From Thauera sp. (GTDB lineage Bacteria > Pseudomonadota > Gammaproteobacteria > Burkholderiales > Rhodocyclaceae), in NCBI GenBank assembly GCA_024235615.1, contig JACKMB010000001.1, forward strand, positions 62,001 to 126,000: a stretch of DNA of 64,000 nt, read 5' to 3'. This document shows positions 39,643 to 41,040 of this stretch, piece after piece (the stretch's first letter is position 1; the number at the start of each line of letters is the position of its first letter). Made by a program: the position numbers and the translations under genes. The notes beneath the pieces were generated by a model. It saw nothing but the letters and a program-made list of their open reading frames with translations. It did not search any database and was not told the DNA's origin.

Positions 39643-41040
39643 TCAACTGCCCTGCGGGCTCTTTTTTTCGTCCCCCTCCCCGCCCTCGCCCTCCAGCAAG
39701 CCGAGCGCCTTGAGCCTTCGATACAGCGTGCGCTCGCTGATCCCCAGCCGGCGTGCCAGCTCGCGCCGGCTGCCACGATGCGCGCGCACCGCGCGCAACA
39801 TGGCCTGGCGCTGCACCTCCTCGAGATCCAGCGGATCGCGCACCGGCACAGCGGCGGCCGGCGGACCTCCACTGGCAAATCGTGACCCGGCACTCTCGCG
39901 CTCGGGATGCAACACCTCCTCGGGCAGGTGCTCGGGGCCGATCACCTCGCCGTCGCACATCAGGCTGGCGCGCTCGAGCACGTTGCGCAGTTCGCGCACG
40001 TTGCCCGGGAATGGGTAATCGCACAGCACGCGCAGCGCGGCCGGGCCCAGCGACAGCGTGCGCTTGGGCGCGACGCGCTCGAGCAGGGAATCGATCAGCA
40101 AGGGCAGGTCGCCCTCGCGCTCGCGCAGCGGCGGCACGGTGATCGGGAAGGTGTTGATGCGGAAGTACAGGTCCTGGCGAAAGCCGCCCTCGGCGATCAT
40201 GCGCTTGAGCGGGCGGTGGGTGGCCGAGACCAGGCGGATGTCGGCGCGGCGCAGCTCGGTGGAGCCGACGCGCCGGTAGGTGCCGGTCTCGAGTAGGCGC
40301 AGCAGCTTGACCTGCATGCCGAGCGGGATGTCGCCGACCTCGTCGAGGAACAGCGTGCCGCCGCTGGCCGCCTCGACCAGGCCGGGCTTGCGCGCCGTGG
40401 CGCCGGTGAAGGCGCCGCGCTCGTGGCCGAAGACCTCGCTCTCGAACAGGGTCTCGGGCAGGCCGGAGCAGTCGACCACCACGAACGGACCCTCGGCGCG
40501 CCGGCTGGCCTCGTGCACCGCGCTCGCGAGCAGCTCCTTGCCTGTACCCGACTCGCCCTGCAGCAAAACGCTCGCGTCCGAGGGCGCCACCCGCGCGATC
40601 AGCTCGAGCATGCGCTGGAAGGCGGGCGAGCGCCCGATCAGGCCGCGGTGGTCCGACACCCCGCGGGCGACGTGCATCGGCTCCATCTTCTCGATGAACC
40701 AGGCGATCTCGCCGCTGGCGTCGCGCACCGGGGAGAGCTCGATGTTCACGTATTCCTCGCCGCGCGGCGTGTGGTGCAGGTGCAGCACGCGCTCGCGCTG
40801 GCCGGACTGCAGGCTGCGCGCGAGCGGACAGGATTCGCCGGCGCGATCGCAGGGCACGCTGTAGTGATGCGACACGTCGTAGCAGGTGCGCCCGATCACG
40901 CTGCGCGCCTCCGGCCAGGAGCGCCGGTAGGCGGCGTTGGCGGCGATGATGCGGTAGTCGCGGTCGCACAGGATGTGCGGTTCGGGGAGGGTCTCGAGGA
41001 AGGAGACCAGCTCGGGCAGCGGGCGGGTTTCGGGTGGCAT
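39643..41040 (-). CDS. fisR: Sigma-54-dependent activator FisR (sulfane-sulfur sensor)
   Basis: A 465-residue enhancer-binding protein. A PAS-like sensor domain (about 1-125) is followed by an AAA+ domain (about 133-375; Walker [10 protein letters not shown], sigma-54 loop GAFTGA, Walker [12 protein letters not shown]) and a C-terminal Fis-type helix-turn-helix ([20 protein letters not shown]). The sensor has [19 protein letters not shown] followed by ESC, placing cysteines at exactly 53, 64 and 71. These are the positions I recall as the sulfane-sulfur sensors of FisR from Cupriavidus, which turns on sulfide-oxidation genes with sigma-54. It is divergent from the cydPABX operon. Ligand assignment is by homology, not proof. 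Confidence 0.85.

Follow-up and report, generated by a model that had tools for sequence, protein, structure and literature searches.

Cytochrome bd is encoded in Thauera back to back with a gene for a FisR-type σ54 activator, which raises the question whether a sulfide-responsive regulator acts directly on a terminal oxidase. The locus lies in a stretch of 64,000 nucleotides (the window), whose nearest named contigs are those of Thauera, with T. phenylacetica B4P at 96%. According to the accessible part of one report, sulfide does not inhibit the CydAB bd oxidase, and cytochrome bd is induced by sulfide in E. coli, M. tuberculosis and A. baumannii (PMC7315123). In the portions of a largely open-access literature that our search reached, no dedicated sulfide-responsive cyd activator was named and no link of FisR to cyd or to a Rieske gene was found. 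The reading that we favour, with a probability of roughly 70%, is that FisR is a sulfane-sulfur-responsive σ54 activator that couples sulfide oxidation to a change in the quinol-oxidising chain.

The FisR protein and its sensor domain

The ORF listing of the window holds an open frame of 465 amino acids on the minus strand, exactly at the position (39643-41040) at which an earlier note on this DNA had placed a FisR gene; the plus-strand frame over the same interval is interrupted by stops. The PAS-like sensor and the AAA+ and Fis domains claimed there were borne out by domain matches to PAS_4 (residues 15-114), the σ54 interaction domain (134-300), an AAA lid (306-383) and a Fis-type HTH (406-445). 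The protein thus has the architecture of the FisR kind, i.e. an N-terminal sensor, here PAS, followed by the σ54 AAA+ module and the Fis HTH. The features of the locus are compiled in Table 1.

Table 1. Annotated features of the window (positions counted from its first letter).
Feature	Position	Strand	Remark
σ54-type element TGGCACGGATCTTGAT	30197..30212	+	single TGNCA upstream; weak candidate
FeMo-co-domain-like small protein	30255..30647	+	PF02579, 25.9 bits, cut-off 26.3
DUF6858 protein	30923..31315	+	
ETHE1/persulfide-dioxygenase-like protein	31335..32030	+	4ysb 3.4e-35, 5ve3 6.3e-24, 4chl 1.2e-21
Lone second Rieske iron-sulfur subunit	38705..39307	-	73% identical to petABC operon copy
σ54-type promoter TGGCACGGCTGTTGCT of lone Rieske gene	39481..39496	-	
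Candidate FisR enhancer, three TGNCA	39553..39596	.	just beyond fisR 3′ end
fisR	39643..41040	-	PAS (Cys53/64/71), AAA+ σ54 activation, Fis-type HTH
Candidate FisR enhancer (UAS)	41035..41089	.	TGNCA half-sites 41035, 41045, 41066, 41085
FNR/ANR-type palindrome TTGATTTACATCAA	41134..41147	.	in only part of FisR-cyd loci
σ54-type -24/-12 element TGGCACGCGTCTTGAT	41169..41184	+	-12 is GA, not GC
cydP, small oxidase subunit	41214..41411	+	NF045611, 55.9 bits, cut-off 29.6; overlaps cydA start
cydA, cytochrome bd subunit I	41401..42963	+	
cydB, cytochrome bd subunit II	42980..44122	+	
cydX-like 50-aa ORF	44150..44302	+	name by position
ybgE-like	44313..44654	+	
SQOR-type (mitochondrial) sulfide:quinone oxidoreductase	44789..46141	+	structure matches 6mp5 1.4e-72, 6oi5 1.5e-72
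Small protein, membrane type by eye	46154..46489	+	recurs beside sqr
Rhodanese, exported-type N-terminus (read from sequence)	46571..47119	+	PF00581

Counted from the ATG, the cysteines of FisR are at positions 25, 53, 64, 71, 191, 340 and 362. The earlier note had equated Cys53, Cys64 and Cys71 with the sensing residues of Cupriavidus FisR. This was matched on the FisR protein of C. metallidurans CH34, encoded divergently from pdo and sqr, in which the alignment places cysteines at exactly 53, 64 and 71. The alignment over the sensor domain, which the note had called for, comprises 106 homologous loci, some of which are one genome fetched twice; C53 and C71 are present in all of them and C64 in 105, and Cys25 is variable, with 42 of the 106. 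The set was drawn from 121 aligned rows by removing the window, L001-L010 (nine paralogues plus a copy from the same genome), two rows that differ in their N-terminus (L113, L120) and two in which it is cut (L075, L090). Judged from this alignment, the conservation of the three cysteines is not due to chance.

A search with the PAS domain through 120 genomes of the phylum returned 33 matches in 21 genomes. Of the 30 loci fetched, 29 could be re-aligned, and all 29, window included, carry the cysteine triad, among them eight with open frames of 648-1326 amino acids that are not FisR-like in length. Since the triad is also found in these long proteins, it is not diagnostic alone; it marks a PAS subfamily, and the idea that it proves a response to sulfane sulfur was rejected. 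The cysteine motif is also carried by more distant activators (L094-L119), which adjoin other genes, multihaem cytochromes in the case of Geobacter-type loci, and this PAS subfamily may respond to other signals there.

In the predicted PAS structure (mean pLDDT 87.7) each of the three cysteines falls on the beginning of a short helix or immediately ahead of it, and the fold is similar to that of PAS/LOV domains that bind ligands, NifL among them; when the PAS alignment was run as a profile against solved structures, no hit was better than E 0.13. The invariant columns of 24 aligned PAS domains include C53, S57, H58, P63, C64, G68, E69, C71, P72, H87, H89 and E117. In near FisR PAS domains His58, His87 and His89 show the same invariance as Cys53, Cys64 and Cys71 and could form a metal site, which to our knowledge is not part of the published FisR thiol model. 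The sensor might accordingly hold a metal or Fe-S centre on Cys53/64/71 and His58/87/89 and perceive redox state, oxygen or NO, with sulfide acting indirectly. The invariance of both sets of columns, the recurrence of the cysteine motif in other PAS proteins and the predicted NifL-like fold are compatible with such a centre. We nevertheless regard it as unlikely, given that the neighbours of FisR are often sulfide-metabolism genes and that a C53-C64 tetrasulfide is reported for FisR of C. pinatubonensis in the accessible sections of PMC8614764.

Candidate promoter and enhancer elements upstream of cyd

The divergent orientation of the regulator and cydPABX, as previously described, was confirmed, with cydP (41214-41411) and the genes that follow on the plus strand. 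CydA, CydB and the small subunits stand in the order cydPABX-ybgE, CydX by position only; the 50-aa ORF at 44150-44302 is presumed to be CydX-like from its position.

The element upstream of cydP reads TGGCACG-N4-TTGAT (41169-41184). σ54 promoters have the consensus GG at -24 and GC at -12. The cyd promoter carries the GG at -24, but GA at -12, whereas the promoter of the lone Rieske gene fits both. Four TGNCA half-sites lie at -134 to -84 relative to the cyd -24 element, and the half-site at 41035 falls within the initial codons of fisR. Among 17 cyd-linked loci the density of TGNCA is 4.24 per 120 nt, compared with 0.94 in shuffles, and the spacings cluster near 10, 20, 30 and 40.

For a count across genomes, a strict site was defined as TGGYAYN5TTG with at least three TGNCA at -145 to -50, a definition fixed after many of the cyd loci had been viewed. 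Such a site precedes cyd in 23 of 33 distinct upstreams with FisR in the same locus (ten lack it) and in none of 12 upstreams from genomes without a close FisR (L147, L181-L191; p 2.2e-5), a comparison in which ancestry differs as well as FisR, the 12 CydA proteins being more distant (65-71% identity). No shuffle, at 20 per upstream, produced a strict site. With FisR elsewhere in the genome, only 2/11 cyd upstreams have one (L132, L135), the failing ones being L122, L129 (one base off), L131, L149, L150 and L192-L195. There is none at L148, where FisR is at the locus edge, or at three distant Desulfotignum loci, so that two of all 27 cyd upstreams without FisR in the same locus pass (12, 11, L148 and the three Desulfotignum loci). 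Twenty-seven loci were fetched after the definition had been set and were scored in the direction divergent from fisR, regardless of the gene present there. Twelve of them carry a strict site (shuffles 0/540), and their TGNCA density is 3.48 per 120 nt versus 0.91 in shuffles. Eight paralogue loci, used as a control, had no TGNCA; the control is weak, as their gene starts were estimates.

The contrast of 23/33 with 0/12 upstreams provides comparative promoter evidence for the previously proposed action of the regulator on the cyd operon and suggests that this action is direct. A chance -24/-12 match, with some other gene as the true target of FisR, seems very improbable to us: the non-consensus -12 base of the cyd promoters and the low yield (2/11) where FisR is elsewhere would agree with it, while position, spacing and UAS are conserved and no shuffle reached a strict site, those of the later-fetched loci included. 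Among 27 strict -24/-12 matches before cyd with FisR in the locus, the -12 region is TTGA in 18, TTGT in six and TTGC in three. Unlike these, the strict -24/-12 matches of the order-wide set have TTGC in 18/21. TTGA or TTGT at -12 may constitute a tuned weak σ54 promoter that leaves cyd silent without its activator.

The palindrome at 41134-41147 is taken to be of FNR/ANR type on the basis of the consensus. Conceivably, cyd is mainly under the control of an oxygen regulator of this type, the role of FisR being limited to the Rieske gene or incidental. The box TTGAT-N4-ATCAA is found in the window and in closely related Thauera loci, and Fnr3 of Herbaspirillum is described as a direct activator of cydAB in the available text of PMC5934665. 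Yet an FNR-box match occurs in only 7/17 cyd-linked loci (the window, L043, L045, L052, L054, L055 and L085), and the UAS and the -24/-12 element are more widely kept. FNR and FisR inputs can, moreover, coexist, and we consider control mainly by oxygen improbable. Direct control by FisR is retained as the preferred reading, the FNR box suggesting an added oxygen input at cyd.

Genes behind cyd and further candidate targets

fisR is divergent from cydP-cydA-cydB-cydX-like-ybgE, which is followed in the cyd direction by sqr, the small membrane-type protein gene and the rhodanese gene. The gap between ybgE and sqr measures 134 bases, and the three genes probably belong to one operon with cydPABX-ybgE. 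The SQOR-type enzyme has a Tat-like N-terminus as read from its sequence; no family match was found for the small protein (46154-46489). Behind the divergent σ54-type promoter, cyd comes first, and the sulfide-oxidation genes sqr and rhodanese follow on the same strand; L040, L086 and L087 are examples of relatives that have pdo in first place.

The lone second Rieske gene lies downstream of fisR in the fisR direction. Strict sites precede 23 of 33 Rieske genes with FisR in the same locus, but neither the petABC-operon Rieske gene of the same genome nor the Rieske gene of L148. As to the targets named in the earlier note, cyd stands, and the sqr-rhodanese genes behind it and the second Rieske gene, both unnamed there, are likely additions. 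A lone second Rieske gene with its own σ54-type promoter and enhancer-like half-sites recurs beside FisR. No redox-tuning residue was seen in the second Rieske protein; in either copy CPCHGS is followed by one residue and then Phe.

Thirty sites in the genome of the window match TGGCAYRN4TTG, against nine for the reversed control. At least three TGNCA lie upstream of four of the 29 sites examined (of the 30), namely those of cyd, the lone Rieske gene and two pilin genes; the pilin promoters are assumed to be sites of another activator.

A FeMo-co-domain-like protein, a DUF6858 protein and an ETHE1-like dioxygenase are encoded in a row at 30255-32030. The dioxygenase (31335-32030) gave no Pfam match at 0.01, and elsewhere, too, relatives of the FeMo-co-domain-like protein (30255-30647) are encoded close to FisR. 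For the window, a strong FisR site at 30197, ahead of this FeMo-co/PDO-like cluster, was considered and rejected, there being a single TGNCA. A full FisR-type site precedes the PDO-like dioxygenase gene in L057-L060, not in L056.

Linkage of fisR and cyd across genomes

Among 150 genomes of the family (E at most 1e-100 for both proteins), a close FisR is present in 67 and a close CydA in 42, and 30 carry the two together (Fisher p 4.9e-5, without correction for relatedness). In 22 of these 30 genomes the two genes lie no more than 3.5 kb apart; a close CydA is absent from 37 of the 67 FisR genomes. An order-wide search of 200 genomes gave a match in 40, and 27 loci were taken from among the best matches. 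Twenty-four of these came from other families, 13 of them with CydA within the 1.5-kb flanks; the three same-family loci (L247, L248, L251) showed no CydA in flanks of this length. On a Pseudoalteromonas replicon, too, FisR is divergent from cydP and cyd genes. In trees built by a quick method, with long branches flagged, cyd-linked and pdo/sqr-linked FisR proteins are interleaved; their monophyly is tentative, with a support of 94 for the 75-row set. No single origin of the cyd linkage was found; the label changes nine times on the FisR tree.

The sulfur context was assessed in the 51 close-clade loci (of 56) of at least 9 kb. A gene for SQR, a PDO-like protein or rhodanese is present in 23, CydA in 15 and Rieske in 20; 33 contain at least one of cyd, a sulfur gene and Rieske, and 18 none. 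At least one of these three sulfur gene types also occurs in ten of the 15 long loci with CydA. In the Methyloversatilis loci L058 and L059, in which no cyd gene was found, the same promoter type directly precedes sqr. At six loci (L061, L068, L077, L080, L081, L093) the gene upstream of FisR in the divergent direction belongs to one cluster, which by its L080 representative is ccoG-like (cbb3 oxidase assembly). Genes, conserved motifs, the association of motif and FisR across genomes, and linkage are observed directly.

Discussion

The sulfur reading of FisR is founded on its SQR, rhodanese and PDO neighbours and on published FisR work. In the most probable scheme, sulfane sulfur is the signal for FisR, which in turn raises SQR, rhodanese, the bd oxidase and probably PDO. 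We infer sensing of sulfide or polysulfide, DNA binding, the extent of the operon and induction as follows. Persulfide or polysulfide would react with Cys53/64/71 of the PAS domain and thereby release the AAA+ ATPase, a step modelled on published FisR work. Seated on TGNCA half-site arrays that lie some 80-135 bp ahead of the -24/-12 promoter, FisR would then drive cydPABX-ybgE, probably together with the genes for SQR, the membrane protein and rhodanese. Electrons from sulfide would enter the quinone pool and be removed by the sulfide-tolerant bd oxidase, and a second FisR promoter would drive the spare Rieske subunit of the bc1 complex.

With FisR of C. pinatubonensis JMP134, the Thauera protein shares Cys 53/64/71 (compared on the C. 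metallidurans CH34 protein) and the nature of a σ54 activator, as far as the consulted parts of PMC8614764 and PMC9774590 describe it. In contrast, the divergent operon of Thauera begins with cytochrome bd, and its FisR probably acts on the second Rieske gene as well. FisR of A. baumannii is likewise a σ54 activator divergent from sulfide genes, in an organism whose cydAB is induced by sulfide. Unlike the Thauera protein, it has no regulatory cysteines, and it responds to sulfide without them; in the accessible part of that report FisR dependence is shown for pdo-sqr-tauE-hsd, and cydAB is not ascribed to FisR (PMC7315123). A second Rieske gene outside the bc1 cluster also exists in Rubrivivax gelatinosus, according to a secondary citation (Ouchane et al. 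2005, cited in PMC6256036). What sets the Thauera copy apart is its place behind fisR and its FisR-type promoter, which together hint at a trigger. The regulator is of a known kind; the proposed regulon variant with cyd and Rieske is new.

A farther-reaching proposal, on which we are evenly divided, is that FisR serves as a respiratory-chain switch, by which a Rieske swap in bc1, the bd-oxidase bypass and SQR/PDO/rhodanese are brought in together and complex III is remodelled under sulfide.

In summary, the Thauera locus offers a candidate sulfide-responsive cyd activator together with its DNA motif, as well as a hint of what may trigger the use of spare Rieske subunits. If this is true, a single FisR sensor may rewire respiration when sulfide appears.
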